Shown: piece by piece, positions 8,000 to 14,660 of the stretch
How positions within the stretch are numbered: the stretch's first letter is position 1
Layout: each line of letters begins with the position of its first letter
Assembly (NCBI GenBank): GCA_020845895.1
Contig: JADLEX010000107.1
Location: 1-38,287 of the forward strand
Direction: 5' to 3'
Length of the DNA: 38,287 bases
Source: Deltaproteobacteria bacterium
Lineage (GTDB): Bacteria > Lernaellota > Lernaellaia > JACKCT01
Notes under the pieces: model-generated
What the model saw: only the letters and a program-made list of their open reading frames with translations
Told to the model about the DNA's origin: nothing
The model's database searches: none
Made by a program: the position numbers and the translations under genes

Positions 8000-9475
8000 A
8001 TGGATCGTCCGCCCGCCCATGCTGACAGGAGCCCTCGCGATTCGGCGCGCCTGCGCGAGCTTCGCATGCGGGCCCGGCGGATCGGGTGGCGCGCCAAGCT
8101 GGCGATCTTTTTCGGGAGCCTGCTCGTTTCGCTGGTGCTGGCCGAACTCGGCCTGCGTTTCACGTCGAAGCTGTATTTTCAGTCCGAATACGGTCTCGAC
8201 GGCCCGCACGTGTACGGCGAGGAACACGCGAAGGACGTACGAACGGTGCTTTGCGTCGGCGATTCGTTCACGTGGGGCGGCGCGGGTAGCGCGGGCGAAA
8301 CCTACCCCGCGTATCTCGAGAAGATTCTCAATGCGGCGGGCGGGCCGACGCGCTGGCGCGTCATCAATCGCGGGATCTGCGAGTCCAACACCTCGCGCCA
8401 CCGCCAGGAGATCGAGGGCTGGCTGCGCGAGTACAAACCGGACGTGGTGGTTCTGCTCGCCGGTTCGGCCAACCGGTTCAACCCGTGGGACTACGACCTC
8501 TGGGCCGATCACAGCGCGTCGCATGCCCTGGCGAGCTGGTTCGCGCACCTGCGCGTCGTCAAGGTCGCGCGAATCCTCTATCTCAACGGATTCGGGCAGT
8601 CGTTCGCCGAGGCGATCTTTCCCGCCGCGGACCGCTTCGCATTCTGGGGGATGCAACGGGAAAAGTGGCGAAAGAACGCGGAAAATGAAGCCCCCGGGCC
8701 GCTGCGCGATTTGTGGCGCGCGGAGGCCGCCGGCCGGCGCACGGATGCGGTCGAAATCGGACGCGCGGCGATCGACCGTGGCGAAGCCGATGATGCCGTT
8801 TATGCTTCCGTCGCGTGGCTGCTGACGGAAGACGGCGACGACGAGTCCGCTGCCCGGCTCGCGGCCGAGGCGCGCGAGCGGTTTCCGAATTCCGAAGTCG
8901 TTCGAAATTTTCAGGCGGCCTATGCCGGGCGGCGGTGCGAACAACTGCTTTTGCGCCGCGGCGCGTATGACGACGGTGTCGGCGCCTGCCTCGACGCGAT
9001 GGACCTCGTCCCGACCGCTTTTCCGATCTACTACGGGGTCACCAAGTATTTCGACCGCCAGAGCCGATTCACGGCGCAAATGGTGCATGATCGCCTTGTC
9101 GCCGTGGCCCGGACGAATCCGGCGGTGCTCGACTACGGCTGGTATCACGATTACCTTGCGATCTTTCGGGACAAGGAAACGTGGGAGGCCGGGGTCCGCG
9201 ACTGGATGTGGGACGATTTGAACGAAATCGCCGGAATATGCGCCGGACACCATGTTTCGTTGACCGTTCTGAATTATCCTATCGACTACCCGCTGGCGAA
9301 CCGAACGCTTCGGGAGTTGTCGGATCGGCATGGACTCGCGTTCGTGGATCTGTTCTCGACGTTCTCGGGCTTGTCCCCCCGGGAACGATATCTGCTCGAT
9401 GACGACCACTGTACGTCCGAAGGCCATCGGGTGATGGCCGAGGCCGTGGCCGCCGCGTTGACGGGGAGGCAATGA
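8000..9475 (+). CDS. membrane-anchored SGNH hydrolase/acyltransferase-like protein (first of cluster)
   Basis: 491 residues. A basic N-terminal tail (1-33) is followed by one membrane helix (about 34-50: AIFFGSLLVSLVLAELGL), so the catalytic part should face the periplasm. SGNH blocks are visible: GDSFTWG with nucleophile Ser89, NRGICESNTSRH, a block III variant GSANRFNP lacking the usual N-D pair, and DDDHCTSEGH with His470 (Asp467 in the DxxH position). SGNH enzymes hydrolyse or transfer acyl groups on lipids or glycans. A middle region (about 230-310) is helical and repeat-like. An ACGGAG sequence lies seven bases before the ATG. Its TGA overlaps the ATG of the next gene by four bases (ATGA), placing it at the head of a coupled cluster. 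Confidence 0.85.
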   Translation: MDRPPAHADRSPRDSARLRELRMRARRIGWRAKLAIFFGSLLVSLVLAELGLRFTSKLYFQSEYGLDGPHVYGEEHAKDVRTVLCVGDSFTWGGAGSAGETYPAYLEKILNAAGGPTRWRVINRGICESNTSRHRQEIEGWLREYKPDVVVLLAGSANRFNPWDYDLWADHSASHALASWFAHLRVVKVARILYLNGFGQSFAEAIFPAADRFAFWGMQREKWRKNAENEAPGPLRDLWRAEAAGRRTDAVEIGRAAIDRGEADDAVYASVAWLLTEDGDDESAARLAAEARERFPNSEVVRNFQAAYAGRRCEQLLLRRGAYDDGVGACLDAMDLVPTAFPIYYGVTKYFDRQSRFTAQMVHDRLVAVARTNPAVLDYGWYHDYLAIFRDKETWEAGVRDWMWDDLNEIAGICAGHHVSLTVLNYPIDYPLANRTLRELSDRHGLAFVDLFSTFSGLSPRERYLLDDDHCTSEGHRVMAEAVAAALTGRQ

Positions 9476-9711
9476 GCATGGACGACCGGCCCGAAACCAA
9501 GCCCGATACAGCCGCGCCGACCGACGCGGACGGACGCGAGCTGCCGAAGTTCACGTCGAATCGGGATCTGCTGCTGTTCCTGTTCCTGATGATCCGGGAG
9601 AACAAGAAGTGGTGGCTGTTGCCCCTGCTCTTCGTGCTCTCGATCCTGTCGATGTTCGTCAGTCTCACCGGCAACGCGTCGATCCTTCCGGCGATCTACG
9701 CGCTTTTCTAG
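9472..9711 (+). CDS. DUF5989-like small membrane protein
   Basis: 79 residues. A polar, acidic 25-residue head, then FTSNRDLLLFLFLMIRENKKWWLLPLLF and one membrane helix (about 44-62), ending with the short tail ILPAIYALF. The KKWWLLPL entry into the helix and the terminal PxIYxLF are what I know as DUF5989, a family of single-helix proteins of unknown role. From memory it often sits beside SGNH hydrolases and carbamoyltransferases in biosynthetic clusters. Start overlaps the upstream stop (ATGA). It is probably a scaffold or anchor for the neighbouring enzymes, by inference only. Confidence 0.8.
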   Translation: MSMDDRPETKPDTAAPTDADGRELPKFTSNRDLLLFLFLMIRENKKWWLLPLLFVLSILSMFVSLTGNASILPAIYALF

Positions 9712-9723
9712 TCGGAGGACGGC

Positions 9724-11229
9724 GTGGTTCAAGCCGGTTTCGACACGCGCGCGCCAAACACCCGGGAGCGGGTGCTCCTCGTACGCACGTACGAATCGCT
9801 CAAGGGGGGCGGACCCACACCCCCGATCGGTCTGGCGTATCTCGCATCGTCGGTCGAGCGGCAATTCGGTTCGGATGTGGACGTTCGTGTCATCGACTCC
9901 GGTCTTCTCGGCGCCGACGACGCGAAGCGCGTGATCGCCGAATTCGCGCCGCGCTGGGTCGGGCTGTCGGGCATGAGCTGCGAGATCGAGCGGATGCGTT
10001 GGTTCGCCCGCGCCGCGAAGGAACTCGCCCCGGGCGCAATCGTGATCGCCGGCGGACCGCACGCCACCATCGCGTGGGAGTCGCTCCTGCGGGATCCGGA
10101 CTTCGATCTCGTGTCGGTGGGCGAATCGGAACACACGATGGTCGAGGTGCTCGGGACCGGGGGCGATGAAGATCGGCTCGCGCGCATCGCCGGCCTCGCC
10201 TCGCGGCGGAACGGCGAGCTGGTCGCGCCCGCACACCGGGAGATGGAACCGGATCTCGACGAGCTACCCTTCCCGTCGTGGGGGCACGTCCCGCTGCGGG
10301 CTTACGCCGCGTTTCCCAACTGGAACGGCACCCCCCGCGAGGCCGCTTACGCGCCGATCGTGTCGTCGCGCGGATGCCCATACCACTGCTCGTTCTGCCA
10401 TAGCATCTTCGGCAAACGCACCCGCCTGCGCTCGGCGCAAAATGTCTTCGACGAGATGGTCTGGCTCGCCGACGCGCACGGCATCCGCGAGTTCCACTTT
10501 CTCGACGACATCTTCAACCTCGACGTCGAACGCGCGTCGGCGCTGTGCCGCCTCATCATCGACTCGGGGCGCAAATTCTCGCTGGCGTTTCCCAACGGGC
10601 TACGCCCCGACATCATGACGAAAGACCTCGTCGGCCTGCTGCGCGCGGCGGGGACCTACCGCGTGCAATTCGGCTTCGAGAGTTTTTCGCCGCGTCTGCA
10701 AAAGGAAACGAAGAAGCACCTCGACATCGAAAAGGCGCTCGACGCGATCCGATGGACCTCGGCGTCGGGCATCATCACCGGCGCTTATTTCATGTTCGGC
10801 TTTCCGACGCAGACCCGCGCCGAGGCGCTGGACACGATCGAGAAGGCTGCGGCCTCCCCGCTCGACGTGGCATATTTTTTCAAGGCGACGCCGTATCCCG
10901 GCAGCGGATTCTTCGACGCCGTCGCGCACGACGCGTGCGACGGCGGCCCGGCGAAGAGCGCGGCGCCCGGCAGCCTCGACGAATACACCCAGCACCACTT
11001 TTTTTCGGTCGACCGCTCGTACGGATTGCTCGACGCGCGGGAGCTCAACGAGTTGATTCTGCTGGCGCAGCGTAAGTTCTATCTCAGAATCGGCAGGCTC
11101 TGGCGCGGATTTCGCAAAGCCCACAACAAACGGGCGTTCTTGTCGAATTTGCTGGCGGTGTTTGCGCTAGTGTTGCAGGGCATGATCCTGACGAGCCTGG
11201 CCGCGCCGTCCGGGAAGGAGAAGCCGTGA
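9724..11229 (+). CDS. B12-binding-type radical SAM enzyme with C-terminal membrane helix
   Basis: 501 residues from GTG 9724, chosen for GGAGGA five bases upstream. Residues 15-160 look like the cobalamin-binding Rossmann domain of B12-dependent radical SAM enzymes (PPIGLAYLAS, VGLSGMS, IVIAGGPHAT), though the classical DxHxxG cobalamin motif is absent, as in many of this class. The radical SAM core follows with Cys218-x3-Cys222-x2-Cys225 (CPYHCSFC), which holds a [4Fe-4S] cluster that cleaves S-adenosylmethionine. FHFLDDIFN and FGFESFS are typical core strands. Unusually, the C-terminus carries a hydrophobic helix (AFLSNLLAVFALVLQGMIL), suggesting membrane attachment. Such enzymes commonly methylate or rearrange unactivated carbons; the substrate here is unknown. 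The TGA overlaps the GTG of the next gene. Confidence 0.88.
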   Translation: MVQAGFDTRAPNTRERVLLVRTYESLKGGGPTPPIGLAYLASSVERQFGSDVDVRVIDSGLLGADDAKRVIAEFAPRWVGLSGMSCEIERMRWFARAAKELAPGAIVIAGGPHATIAWESLLRDPDFDLVSVGESEHTMVEVLGTGGDEDRLARIAGLASRRNGELVAPAHREMEPDLDELPFPSWGHVPLRAYAAFPNWNGTPREAAYAPIVSSRGCPYHCSFCHSIFGKRTRLRSAQNVFDEMVWLADAHGIREFHFLDDIFNLDVERASALCRLIIDSGRKFSLAFPNGLRPDIMTKDLVGLLRAAGTYRVQFGFESFSPRLQKETKKHLDIEKALDAIRWTSASGIITGAYFMFGFPTQTRAEALDTIEKAAASPLDVAYFFKATPYPGSGFFDAVAHDACDGGPAKSAAPGSLDEYTQHHFFSVDRSYGLLDARELNELILLAQRKFYLRIGRLWRGFRKAHNKRAFLSNLLAVFALVLQGMILTSLAAPSGKEKP

Positions 11230-11399
11230 GACGCGTGATGGCGATCATCTACTGCTCGCTGGCGATGCTGATGCCGTGGCGCGTGCGCGTGTGGTTCGGC
11301 AGCGTGCTCGCCTATTCGTCGCAGGCGGTCTACGGATTCACGACCTGGCTGGTGCGCACGATCGTGAAGAACTTGCAGCCGAAGAAGGAATCGGCGTGA
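11226..11399 (+). CDS. 57-residue membrane-associated peptide, unrecognised
   Basis: This short gene fills what would otherwise be a 166-base gap. It starts at GTG 11226, overlapping the radical SAM stop (GTGA), and its own TGA at 11397 overlaps the GTG of the PP-loop gene in the same way. The product begins MRRVMAIIYCSLAMLMPW, continues with an aromatic second hydrophobic segment (VWFGSVLAYSSQAVYGFTTW) and ends in a basic tail QPKKESA. Two short hydrophobic segments suggest a hairpin or amphipathic membrane peptide. The double coupling to flanking genes is the main evidence that it is real. No family recognised. Confidence 0.68.
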   Translation: MRRVMAIIYCSLAMLMPWRVRVWFGSVLAYSSQAVYGFTTWLVRTIVKNLQPKKESA

Positions 11400-12238
11400 A
11401 GAAACTCGCCGTCATGTACTCGGGGGGCACGGACTCGACCGCGGCGGTGATCCGCGTCGCGCGGGACTTCGACGAGGTCCACCTGCTCACCTACAAACAC
11501 CGCGGCATCACGCAGGTCGAGAACAGCCACCACAACGTTCCCAAGCTTTCCGAGCTTTTCGGCGACGACAAGTTCGTCCACCGCTATTACGACATCGACC
11601 GTCTGCTGCGCGAGGTGAGCTACTCGCGCTACGCGCACTTCGTGGGGCGTTACGGATTCTTCAACCTGGCGACCTGCGGGCTGTGCAAGTTCACGATGCA
11701 CCTGCGCACGCTGCTGTACTGCCTCGACAACGGCATCACGCACATGATCGACGGCGCGAACCACAACATGTCGCACTTTCCGGCGCAGATGCGCGAGGTG
11801 ATCGACGAGCTGCGGCGCATGTACGGGCGTTTCGGCGTCGAATACACGAACCCGGTGTTCGAGCTCGACTTCCCCGACAACATCGACTGGTACCACAAGA
11901 TGTGCCTGCAAAACCTCGCCCGCCGGCCCAAATCGAACACGCCCAAGCCCACCGGCGAGACGGTGACGACCGGCAAAATTCTCCAGGATCACGGCTTTTT
12001 CGAGGAGGAGAACATCAAGGGCGAGAAGATCGACCGCAAGGTCCAGCCCCGCTGTTTCCAGTTCGCGCTCCTCAACGTCTTCGCGCTGTCGTACTACATT
12101 CCCAAACACGGCATGGACCGGTACAAGGAGATGCTCGCGAAATTCTTCGGCGAGAAGCGCGTGATGTTCGAGGAGGAAGTGGCGGAATACGTGAAGGACC
12201 GGCAGCGAAGCCGACTGGCGCGGCTCATCGAAGCGTGA
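11396..12238 (+). CDS. PP-loop ATP pyrophosphatase of unknown substrate
   Basis: 280 residues from GTG 11396, giving MKKLAVMYSGGTDS at the N-terminus. The frame stays open upstream but the extra residues are the shadow of the small membrane gene. SGGTDS at 9-14 is the PP-loop, which binds ATP and adenylates a carbonyl or activates a base, releasing pyrophosphate, as in QueC, ThiI and asparagine synthetase. A CGLC pair (Cys94, Cys97) with Cys109 nearby, together with the later QPRC motif, could bind zinc or carry sulfur. IDGANHNMSH resembles the second nucleotide-binding loop of the fold. It is not QueC: the C-terminal CxxCxxC zinc motif is missing. Translation is coupled to the upstream peptide by GTGA. 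Its likely role is amide, nitrile or thio group formation on the cluster's product. Confidence 0.82.
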   Translation: MKKLAVMYSGGTDSTAAVIRVARDFDEVHLLTYKHRGITQVENSHHNVPKLSELFGDDKFVHRYYDIDRLLREVSYSRYAHFVGRYGFFNLATCGLCKFTMHLRTLLYCLDNGITHMIDGANHNMSHFPAQMREVIDELRRMYGRFGVEYTNPVFELDFPDNIDWYHKMCLQNLARRPKSNTPKPTGETVTTGKILQDHGFFEEENIKGEKIDRKVQPRCFQFALLNVFALSYYIPKHGMDRYKEMLAKFFGEKRVMFEEEVAEYVKDRQRSRLARLIEA

Positions 12239-12284
12239 CACCCGTTCGAGGTTCGCTCCGCTCCGCGAAATCCGCCCCCGTGCG

Positions 12285-13586
12285 ATGACTCGATCCGTCT
12301 CCATCCGCGACCGCATCGCCCGTGCGATGGTTCGTCCCGCGTTCGCGCGGGTGCTCGCCCTCGCGTTCTCGCTGGCGATCCTCGCCGCCGCCGAATTCGC
12401 CGCGCGCGCGCTCGTGCCCGTCGCCGAGCTCGACCGCGTATGGTCGATCATCGAGCGCGACTCCGCGCTCATGTGGCGAAACCGTCCGGACCTGCGCACC
12501 GAATTCGCCGGCGTGCCCGTGCGCGCTGACCGGCGGGGATTCCGCATCTCGGCCGAACGGCCCGCAGCGATTGACGACCGGCGATCGGACGCGCCGCGCA
12601 TCGTCTGCCTCGGCGAGTCGCCCACGTTCGGATGGGGGGTGCGTTTCGAGGACGCGTACCCCGCGCGCGTGGAGAAGTTGCTTTCCGAGCGGCTCGGGCG
12701 CGCGGTCGAGGTCGTGAACGCGGGCATGATCGGCTACTCGTCGCATCAGGGGCGTCTGCTGCTCGAGCGCGAAATCCTCGCGCTGCGTCCCGACATCGTG
12801 AGCGTGCCCTTCGTCATCAACGACATCGACAAATACCGCTTCTACTACAACGACGGCGGCCCCGACCGTGGCGTGGTCCCAGCCCGCCGCGCGCTGACGA
12901 CCGCCGAAAATCTGCTCGATCGCAGTCGGTTCTTTCAAGTCTTCACGCGCGCGTTCCGGCAGGTCGCGTATCGCGGCGAGACCGCCGACGGAAAGCCGAT
13001 GGCCTTCTACCGGCCGCAGCGGCTGCGCGTCGATCTGGCGGATTATCGCGAAAACCTCGTCGCCATCGCGCGGATCTGCCGGGAGCATGCGATCACGCCC
13101 GTCTTCCTCGCGATGAAGGTAAACCTGCCGGTCGCCCCCGTCATCGCCCCCGAAGCGGCGACGGCCGCCGCCGAGCATGTGGCTGCGGCCGAGCGCGCGA
13201 TCGATGAAGGCCGGACCGACGACGCGAAGCGGGAACTCGACGCCGCGGCCGGACTCGATCCGACCAATTGCGAGATCGTTTATCATCGGGCCGTGATGGC
13301 GCGGCATGCGGGCGACGCGCGCGGCGCCGAGGCGGCGTTCGCTGAAACCATGGACTGCGAAGCCGGCCGTTGCGGCCGCGACGCGCTCACCTACAACATC
13401 GAGATGGGGCGCATCGCGACCGAGGAGCAGGTGCGTTTCATCGACATCGCCGCGTCGTTCGCCGGGGCTCCCGGTGTCGAATACTTCCGCACGCTCCAGC
13501 GCGATCCCATCCATCCAAATGAGGCGGGCCACCGTCTGATCGCCGACCGGCTCGCCGAGGTGGCCGAGCGCGTGCTGGCGAAATGA
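12285..13586 (+). CDS. membrane-anchored SGNH hydrolase-like protein (second of cluster)
   Basis: 433 residues with an N-terminal membrane helix (about 22-40: FARVLALAFSLAILAAAEFA). SGNH blocks: GESPTFGWG with Ser112 in the nucleophile position (GDS replaced by GES), NAGMIGYSSHQG, a block III form VINDIDKY with the N-D pair present, and DPIHPNEAGH with Asp407 and His410. Residues about 280-350 contain an Ala-rich helical insert with a TPR-like appearance. It is more like the third SGNH protein at 30927 than the first at 8000 in its GYSSxQG block. It follows the PP-loop gene by 46 bases without a strong ribosome site, and a perfect hairpin lies directly after its stop. Confidence 0.85.
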   Translation: MTRSVSIRDRIARAMVRPAFARVLALAFSLAILAAAEFAARALVPVAELDRVWSIIERDSALMWRNRPDLRTEFAGVPVRADRRGFRISAERPAAIDDRRSDAPRIVCLGESPTFGWGVRFEDAYPARVEKLLSERLGRAVEVVNAGMIGYSSHQGRLLLEREILALRPDIVSVPFVINDIDKYRFYYNDGGPDRGVVPARRALTTAENLLDRSRFFQVFTRAFRQVAYRGETADGKPMAFYRPQRLRVDLADYRENLVAIARICREHAITPVFLAMKVNLPVAPVIAPEAATAAAEHVAAAERAIDEGRTDDAKRELDAAAGLDPTNCEIVYHRAVMARHAGDARGAEAAFAETMDCEAGRCGRDALTYNIEMGRIATEEQVRFIDIAASFAGAPGVEYFRTLQRDPIHPNEAGHRLIADRLAEVAERVLAK

Positions 13587-13610
13587 AACCGGCGGCTCGC
13601 GCCGCCGGTT
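13587..13610. terminator. bidirectional terminator hairpin between convergent genes
   Basis: AACCGGCGGC (13587-13596) pairs perfectly with GCCGCCGGTT (13601-13610) around the tetraloop TCGC. It starts on the base after the SGNH stop and lies 30 bases past the end of the prepilin gene on the other strand. The minus-strand side is followed by a T-rich TTTCATTT; the plus-strand side lacks a T run. Confidence 0.65.
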
Positions 13611-13640: not shown

Positions 13641-14660
13641 TCAGTGGTGTCCCCCCTGGCAGCCTTCGTCGTCCTTGTGCTTCGACCCGTGATTCACTTT
13701 TTCCTCGCACTGCTTCTTGGCGTGCGCGATGCAACTCGCGTAGTCGCCGTGGTTCTTCCACTTCTTGTCCGGCGGGCAGGATTTGTCGAGATCGCAGTCA
13801 CCTTCGTCGTCCTTGCCCTTGTGCCCGTGGCCATCATCATCGTCGTCGTCATCGTTGTCGTGACCGCCGCCGTGATGTCCATCATCGTCGTCGTCATCGT
13901 CGGCATGGTTGCCCGGGTTTCCGTTGCCGTTGCCGTCGTCGTCGGGCGGAGTCGACGGGGAACCGTTGTCGTCCGGCGGAGCTGACGGGGAACCGTTGTC
14001 GTCCGGCGGAGCCGACGGCGAGCCATTGTCGTCGGGCGGAGCTGACGGCGAACCGTTGTCGTCCGGCGGAGTGGACGGGGACCCGTTGTCGTCCGGCGGA
14101 GCCGACGGCGAGCCATTGTCATCCGGCGGAGCGGACGGGGAGCCGTTGTCGTCGGGCGGAGACGCCGGCGAACCGTTCGACGACTGTCCCGAGCCGCAAA
14201 CGCTGGAACCGACCGGATCGGCGCCCAACCCGGCCACCATCGGCGGGTTGTCGTCGAGGCCGTACACGTACGCGTAGCCGCTGATCTCCATGAGACTGCA
14301 GATCACGTAACGCTGCGGCTCGTAGCCGTCCTCGCCGACCTCGGCGAGCTTCATCGGCGCCGATCCGCCTTGTCCCGCGACGGGGACGACCGCGTAGCGA
14401 CCGATCAGCGAGTCGTGGCCGTTGCGCGTGTAGACCGCGTCGATCTGTTCGATTGTTGGAGTCATCGCGGTTTCGGCGTAGTGGATCGTCGCGATGGACT
14501 GCACGTCCTTCATCTGATCCAAAACGACCGCGAGATCGGCCGCCGATCGGACCCGCAGCATGCGCGGGATCATGATGGCGGACATGATGCTGAGGATGGC
14601 GATGACAACCATCGCCTCGACGAGAGTGAAACCCGACCGTCCTTGGCGCGAGCAACGCAT
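13641..14660 (-). CDS. type IV prepilin-like protein with a repeat stalk and Asp/His/Cys-rich tail
   Basis: 339 residues. The N-terminus is a class III signal: short basic leader, then G10|FTLVEAMVVIAILSIMSAIMIP, with the conserved Glu15 at +5. It should be cut and methylated by prepilin peptidase and then join a pilus or secretion pseudopilus. Residues 35-155 are a small globular head with a Cys pair. Residues 162-237 are seven-plus copies of the decapeptide DDNGSPSAPP. Next comes an Asp/His/Gly-rich segment (DDDDDDDGHH), which could bind metal or calcium. The tail contains WKNHGDYASCIAHA, a motif I recall recurring in secreted proteins of unknown function. GAAGGGGG precedes the ATG by about seven bases. 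It is not beside the gsp genes, so membership of that system is unproven. Confidence 0.82.
   Translation of the reverse strand: MRCSRQGRSGFTLVEAMVVIAILSIMSAIMIPRMLRVRSAADLAVVLDQMKDVQSIATIHYAETAMTPTIEQIDAVYTRNGHDSLIGRYAVVPVAGQGGSAPMKLAEVGEDGYEPQRYVICSLMEISGYAYVYGLDDNPPMVAGLGADPVGSSVCGSGQSSNGSPASPPDDNGSPSAPPDDNGSPSAPPDDNGSPSTPPDDNGSPSAPPDDNGSPSAPPDDNGSPSAPPDDNGSPSTPPDDDGNGNGNPGNHADDDDDDDGHHGGGHDNDDDDDDDGHGHKGKDDEGDCDLDKSCPPDKKWKNHGDYASCIAHAKKQCEEKVNHGSKHKDDEGCQGGHH
13951..14176 (-). repeat. 30-bp coding tandem repeat in the prepilin gene
   Basis: Seven full 30-bp units run from 13951 to 14160, with partial units at both ends. Read on the plus strand the unit resembles GACGGGGAACCGTTGTCGTC followed by CGGCGGAGC. 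Third-position and Ala/Thr differences between copies show the protein repeat DDNGSPSAPP is maintained while DNA copies drift. Copy number is likely to vary between strains by slippage. Confidence 0.9.

Follow-up and report, generated by a model that had tools for sequence, protein, structure and literature searches.

A six-gene cassette of a Lernaellota bacterium that may carry an activated group to the cell envelope on a DUF5989 microprotein

The stretch analysed here, 38,287 nucleotides of contig JADLEX010000107.1 (hereafter the window), comes from a genome deposited as Deltaproteobacteria bacterium and placed by GTDB in the Lernaellota (GCA_020845895.1). It contains a six-gene cassette that may encode an envelope-modification pathway, in which a small group would be activated by a PP-loop ATPase, carried on a C-terminal tyrosine of a DUF5989 microprotein and transferred by SGNH proteins; sulfur chemistry would be a likely but not a required part. 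We put the probability of this reading at about 0.45, and regard the tyrosine-shuttle step taken by itself as probable. Two features of the cassette are the most informative: DUF5989 ends in a sequence like that of an acyl shuttle, and the PP-loop enzyme has a cysteine triad of the iron-sulfur (Fe-S) type. Both were overlooked by an earlier note on this DNA, which had proposed a membrane-assembled acyl-tailoring pathway.

The scheme that we infer begins at the cytosolic face, where the PP-loop enzyme, with a 57-amino-acid (aa) peptide as its partner, would adenylate the carbonyl of a small substrate at the expense of ATP. The oxygen would probably then be replaced by sulfur through a [4Fe-4S] cluster on C94, C97 and C220, giving a thioacid or thiocarbamoyl-like activated group, whose carbon skeleton might be altered, most simply by methylation, by the B12 radical SAM enzyme of certain lineages. 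The activated group would be loaded onto the C-terminal Tyr of the DUF5989 microprotein, from which SGNH2, and SGNH1 where present, would take it on the active-site Ser and pass it to a glycan or lipid in the periplasm. The scheme is weakest at the crossing of the membrane: no MBOAT was found in the cassette, and no activity is known for the 57-aa peptide or for SxtJ, the small membrane protein of other DUF5989 sets. The features of the cassette are as follows.

8000-9475, + strand: SGNH1, 491 aa, with an N-terminal transmembrane (TM) helix at 34-52 and a Lipase_GDSL_2 domain
9472-9711, + strand: DUF5989 (PF19451) microprotein, 79 aa, with one TM helix at 49-67 and the C-terminus LPAIYALF
9691-9708, + strand: C-terminal hexapeptide AIYALF of DUF5989, the counterpart of FXYXXF, with the Tyr76 codon at 9697-9699
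9724-11229, + strand: B12-binding radical SAM protein, 501 aa, with the motif CPYHCSFC and a C-terminal hydrophobic helix at 476-494
11226-11399, + strand: 57-aa membrane peptide with the conserved core LLPxRxRxxYxxxxxxxxQ
11396-12238, + strand: PP-loop (AANH) ATPase with a GTG start, an SGGTDS motif and the triad C94/C97/C220 (codons 11675, 11684 and 12053)
12285-13586, + strand: SGNH2, 433 aa, with an N-terminal TM helix, block I GESPTFG and block V DPIH
13587-13610, + strand: hairpin ending the set, with a perfect 10-bp stem (-23.5 kcal/mol, z -3.7)

All six open reading frames (ORFs) were found on the plus strand, between 8000 and 13586, where the earlier note had placed them, and four of the five junctions are coupled as it described. 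SGNH1 and DUF5989 overlap by four bases (ATGA), the radical SAM gene follows DUF5989 after 12 bases with GGAGG upstream, and the next two junctions, on either side of the 57-aa peptide gene, are again four-base overlaps (GTGA each). SGNH2 begins 46 bases after the PP-loop gene, with no overlap. The perfect hairpin said to close the set is present; since no T-run follows it, a classical terminator is unsupported. Pfam searches of the window identified Lipase_GDSL_2 in both SGNH proteins (1e-16), DUF5989 (3.7e-13) and, in the radical SAM protein, the B12-binding (PF02310, 1e-17) and Radical_SAM (PF04055, 1e-19) domains. The PP-loop protein gave weak QueC/AANH matches only, the 57-aa ORF fell into no reliable family, and none of the cassette proteins matched a housekeeping pathway. 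Hydropathy analysis indicates a single TM helix in DUF5989, a weaker helix in the 57-aa peptide, an N-terminal TM helix in each SGNH protein (SGNH2 has a second, weaker peak) and the C-terminal helix in the radical SAM protein; positive charge precedes the TM helix of DUF5989, SGNH1 and SGNH2, a pattern of the N-in type.

PP-loop orthologues occur in a genome of the same class as the window genome (G005, 54%), in one from another phylum (G261) and in an Elusimicrobiota metagenome-assembled genome (L028), and the 341 Elusimicrobiota genomes searched hold nine members of the PP-loop clade. The first four members group as a clade (support 100/100) that is separate from 22 paralogues; the other eight were placed in it by profile score, not by a new tree. 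The set used for conservation comprises 12 genomes (13 PP-loop genes) from three separate lineages, and the genes are co-located in them, so that the earlier note's own ground for refutation, scattered homologues, does not apply. The gene for the 57-aa peptide adjoins the PP-loop gene in 12 of 12 genomes (weakly in G756). An SGNH2-type protein is encoded near the PP-loop gene in 10 of the 12, which makes it the most widespread SGNH protein of the cassette, and DUF5989 in nine; the locus in G731 is cut by a contig end. The B12 radical SAM gene is present in five genomes and SGNH1 in four, all four with the radical SAM gene, and all six kinds of gene are found in G545, G730 and the L028 genome. 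No DUF5989-type tail was seen at the 15 PP-loop paralogue loci. The core of the cassette consists of the genes for the peptide, the PP-loop enzyme, SGNH2 and DUF5989, and the B12 radical SAM and SGNH1 genes are an optional pair. The membrane-linked acyl-transfer theme of the earlier note is supported; its six genes do not always occur as a unit.

The C-termini of DUF5989 proteins read (A/L)PFIYxxF, with small variants, at all 30 loci from the family search. Cassettes with the PP-loop gene have the tails AIYALF, AIYAFF, AIYLIGF, GIYIAL, ILYIAF and IIYALF, with the Tyr kept in nine of nine and the final Phe in eight of nine. FXYXXF is the acyl-shuttle motif of DltX and of the PatA C-terminus, whose Tyr takes an acyl group to an SGNH protein, and acetyl-FIYANF is accepted as a donor by PatB (PMC12148441, JBC 2025). 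MBOAT pathways other than Dlt are stated in the same study to have no DltX-like microprotein (PMC12148441). The window genome seems to be an exception, with what look like split, DltX-like SGNH-MBOAT-microprotein operons: two SGNH-MBOAT operons (L107:110-2806 and L106:2886-5475, contigs C51 and C27) are each followed by a separate single-TM microprotein, with tails FIYAGF and FLYVTF, and the MBOATs themselves lack such a tail. The second DUF5989 of this genome (L059) ends in FIYAGF, identical to one of the MBOAT-linked tails. Across 708 kb of loci, C-termini of the form [FA]xYx(2-3)F are found in 34 of 6,676 ORFs (30 DUF5989 proteins, two MBOAT-linked microproteins and two others); because most of these loci had been fetched for DUF5989, the informative part of the census is the near absence of the tail outside that family. 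DUF5989 as a sequence homologue of DltX was rejected, no profile match being found; the two agree in tail and topology only. DUF5989 scored above cut-off in 63 of 193 sampled genomes, and no mention of it was found in the literature searched.

Among 20 extended canonical DUF5989 loci, a NodU/CmcH carbamoyltransferase with SxtJ is present in 15, an SGNH protein in six and an MBOAT in none. That DUF5989 accompanies carbamoyltransferases, as stated in the earlier note, is thus borne out for most sampled loci, whereas in the cassette it accompanies a PP-loop enzyme without any carbamoyltransferase: no NodU/CmcH protein was found in the window, G005, G261 or the nine Elusimicrobiota cassettes, nor did the cassettes yield an SxtJ. 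The PP-loop enzyme and the 57-aa peptide occupy the place that the carbamoyltransferase and SxtJ have in other DUF5989 sets. The 57-aa peptide was also considered as a short SxtJ (PF19588), and this was rejected (hhalign probability 0.3%). The titles and abstracts of the literature searched contained no relevant link between DltX and carbamoyltransferases. A third DUF5989 context exists in the class of the window genome, at two loci without a carbamoyltransferase (L060:8921-12254 and L062:5710-8998), where DUF5989 (LPFIYAVF/LPFIYALF) directly follows a SAM methyltransferase-like protein of ∼470-490 aa and a SPASM radical SAM protein.

Among solved structures, Erwinia amylovora YcfA is nearest to the PP-loop protein in sequence as well as in fold; together with YcfB it was reported to be necessary and sufficient for 6-thioguanine synthesis (PMC7994395). 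The PP-loop family contains a CxxC...C triad that YcfA does not have in the alignment. CtaC, an Fe-S thioamide synthetase, uses C154/C157/C284 (PMC6772006); C94/C97/C220 stand in the same order with nearly equal spacing. Within the clade, C94 and C220 are present in 13 of 13 members and C97 in 11, the triad being complete in 11 of 13, and C220 is found in 25 of 26 proteins of the earlier PP-loop family set, which was chosen without regard to this residue. Some PP-loop paralogues adjoin class-V aminotransferases of the cysteine-desulfurase type; others, in the class of the window genome, have carbamoyltransferase and radical SAM genes close by. Since YcfA is nearest, the triad resembles that of CtaC and such aminotransferases lie beside paralogues, thiolation is the chemistry we tentatively prefer for this enzyme, at somewhat less than even odds. 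The window enzyme has the SGGxDS PP-loop in common with the AANH sulfurtransferases YcfA/TgsB and CtaC/TtuA/TtcA, and the triad with CtaC/TtuA/TtcA. It differs from them in forming a distinct clade with its own C-terminal region, in its translational coupling to a membrane peptide and in its DUF5989 and SGNH neighbours.

The radical SAM protein shares the B12-binding and radical SAM domains and the CxxxCxxC motif with class B B12-dependent enzymes (BchE, HpnJ and the TIGR families) and differs from them in its C-terminal membrane helix and in being conserved with the cassette. It scored below every NCBIfam cut-off (best 131.7 bits, against a BchE cut-off of 481). The G545 protein is 40% identical to it over the full length, C-terminal helix included, and orthologues were also found in G424, G570 and G730. 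Both SGNH proteins contain GDS/GES and DxxH motifs that provide Ser and Asp/His, in addition to the N-terminal TM helix, in agreement with the earlier description of them as periplasm-facing. The SGNH/GDSL domain of SGNH1 (block I GDSF, block V DDDH) is split by a helical repeat-like insert; homologues occur in G424 (1.5e-31) and in the G545 and G730 cassettes. A fold search with SGNH1 returned weak GDSL matches only (best E 0.016), so that transferase and esterase are not distinguished by it. At L028/L152 in Elusimicrobiota, several B12- and SPASM-type radical SAM proteins surround the cassette on both strands of a ∼19-kb locus; hidden Markov models mark nine radical SAM ORFs there, one of them marginal, and the locus also encodes a methylthiotransferase-like protein and a 536-aa membrane protein.

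Several observations weigh against the proposed pathway. The structure model of the PP-loop enzyme is of modest quality (predicted local distance difference test score, pLDDT, 62). C97 is lost in two PP-loop members, G261 and G652, and the Fe-S or thiolation step is therefore not universal; no desulfurase or sulfur carrier was found in the cassette, nor is a source of sulfur encoded in its vicinity. Among the six window genes neither an MBOAT nor any other known membrane-crossing acyltransferase was detected, and the nine Elusimicrobiota cassettes gave no MBOAT; the three MBOATs of the window genome sit on other contigs. The window tail is AIYALF, not FXYXXF: Tyr and the final Phe are kept and the first Phe is replaced, as it is in every cassette tail (0 of 9 retain it, with A, G or I instead), and one cassette tail ends in L. 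Between the DltX profile (PF12459) and DUF5989 no match was found in the window genome, and across 193 genomes none exceeded the cut-off. One genome, G669, holds the peptide and PP-loop genes alone.

The variable C97 and the missing sulfur source, along with the weak QueC matches, would suit a PP-loop enzyme that forms an amide or acyl-adenylate in the manner of asparagine synthetase or QueC, with no sulfur involved and the cysteines binding zinc or serving a structural role. We consider this somewhat unlikely in view of the CtaC-like spacing of the triad, the retention of C94 and C220 throughout the clade and of C220 in nearly all of the earlier family set, the nearest structure being YcfA and the desulfurase-like genes beside paralogues. 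Loss of the first Phe is likewise compatible with DUF5989 and the 57-aa peptide being scaffolds that dock the PP-loop enzyme and the radical SAM enzyme at the membrane, while the SGNH proteins act as esterases trimming the product and the tail packs on an SGNH protein without carrying any group. The two small proteins are conserved and embedded in the membrane, and a related published cluster annotates its DUF5989-type gene as 'Unknown' and its GDSL gene as a hydrolase (PMC2679770). All DUF5989 proteins examined, however, have the Tyr as the constant residue of their tail, and the hexapeptide of the second DUF5989 of the window genome recurs unchanged on an MBOAT-linked microprotein of that genome, which makes a purely scaffolding role unlikely.

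It is more doubtful still that the product is a small secreted or membrane-bound metabolite, a thioamide-type compound built by the PP-loop and radical SAM enzymes, to which the SGNH pair would add or remove an acyl group during export. The relatives YcfA/TgsB (PMC7994395) and CtaC (PMC6772006) do make small antimetabolites or antibiotics, and SPASM and B12 radical SAM genes lie at several Elusimicrobiota loci; yet no exporter, carrier protein or ligase was found in the window cassette, and SGNH2 and DUF5989 are commoner in the clade than the radical SAM protein. A chance run of unrelated small operons, to which the 46-base gap before SGNH2 and the cassettes devoid of the radical SAM gene might point, is highly improbable and is refuted for the core four genes, because the genes are found together in 12 genomes of three lineages, and distant genomes again show the 57-aa ORF overlapping the PP-loop gene.

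The envelope-modification pathway preferred here resembles two known systems. With Dlt (DltA-DltC-DltB-DltX-DltD) and PatAB it shares a single-TM, N-in microprotein with a Tyr tail (FXYXXF in DltX and PatA, FIYxxF in DUF5989 generally, AIYALF here), a membrane-anchored SGNH partner with Ser/Asp/His and an ATP-using cytosolic activator (DltA there, the PP-loop enzyme here); it differs in having no detected MBOAT or acyl-carrier protein, in the replaced first Phe and in the lack of detectable DltX homology. Because the tests for an MBOAT and for DltX homology failed and the tail departs from the strict motif, the cassette is not classed as an acyl-Tyr shuttle-SGNH system. With the SxtI-SxtJ-SxtK-SxtL sets (carbamoyltransferase, SxtJ, DUF5989 and GDSL protein), which are widespread in bacteria, it has in common DUF5989, an SGNH protein, one small membrane protein and one cytosolic ATP-using group-transfer enzyme, whereas the PP-loop enzyme replaces the NodU/CmcH carbamoyltransferase and the 57-aa peptide has no detectable relation to SxtJ. 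The cassette is therefore no SxtIJKL set either; it joins features of both systems with an AANH enzyme and is a new variant. The widespread DUF5989 would thereby gain the concrete role of delivering activated groups to SGNH transferases, acyl-Tyr shuttling would extend beyond MBOAT systems, which raises the question of what replaces the MBOAT, and a PP-loop family with thiolase-type cysteines would be tied to envelope chemistry. In a broader proposal, which we hold as possible with the balance against it, DUF5989 would be a general Tyr-tail group shuttle serving three or more types of cytosolic activator (carbamoyltransferase, PP-loop enzyme and methyltransferase/SPASM radical SAM set), and the cassette would be an MBOAT-independent system that furnishes the envelope with an acyl group bearing a thio or another modification.

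PP-loop paralogues were observed in other surroundings. At L090:4645-5815, L091:11114-12360 and L092:195-2526 they are followed by a membrane protein of ∼120-130 aa that starts near a CCG motif, and in L091 and L092 the desulfurase-type class-V aminotransferases are adjacent. In L018, L019, L020, L021, L025 and L027 they are no more than a few kb away from NodU/CmcH-type carbamoyltransferases, mostly with a radical SAM gene, and in L021 a polysaccharide-deacetylase-like gene stands between the two. A single-sequence PP-loop scan of genome contigs and a scan of viral contigs gave no matches. A plasmid search with the PP-loop protein gave distant matches only, with Staphylococcus chromogenes and S. 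epidermidis as hosts. Clusters for 6-thioguanine have been published for these species (PMC7994395) and may be linked to the plasmid matches.

The flanks of the cassette look unrelated to it. Upstream lies a TPR/periplasmic-binding gene (by Pfam); downstream, visual inspection suggests nuo-type genes and, on the opposite strand, a pilin-like gene. The protein encoded directly downstream (13641-14660, - strand) is prepilin-like and contains NGSPSAPPDD repeated in tandem as well as long stretches of acidic residues and His; acidic, D-rich stretches like those in it are present in L020, L059 and L060 proteins too.

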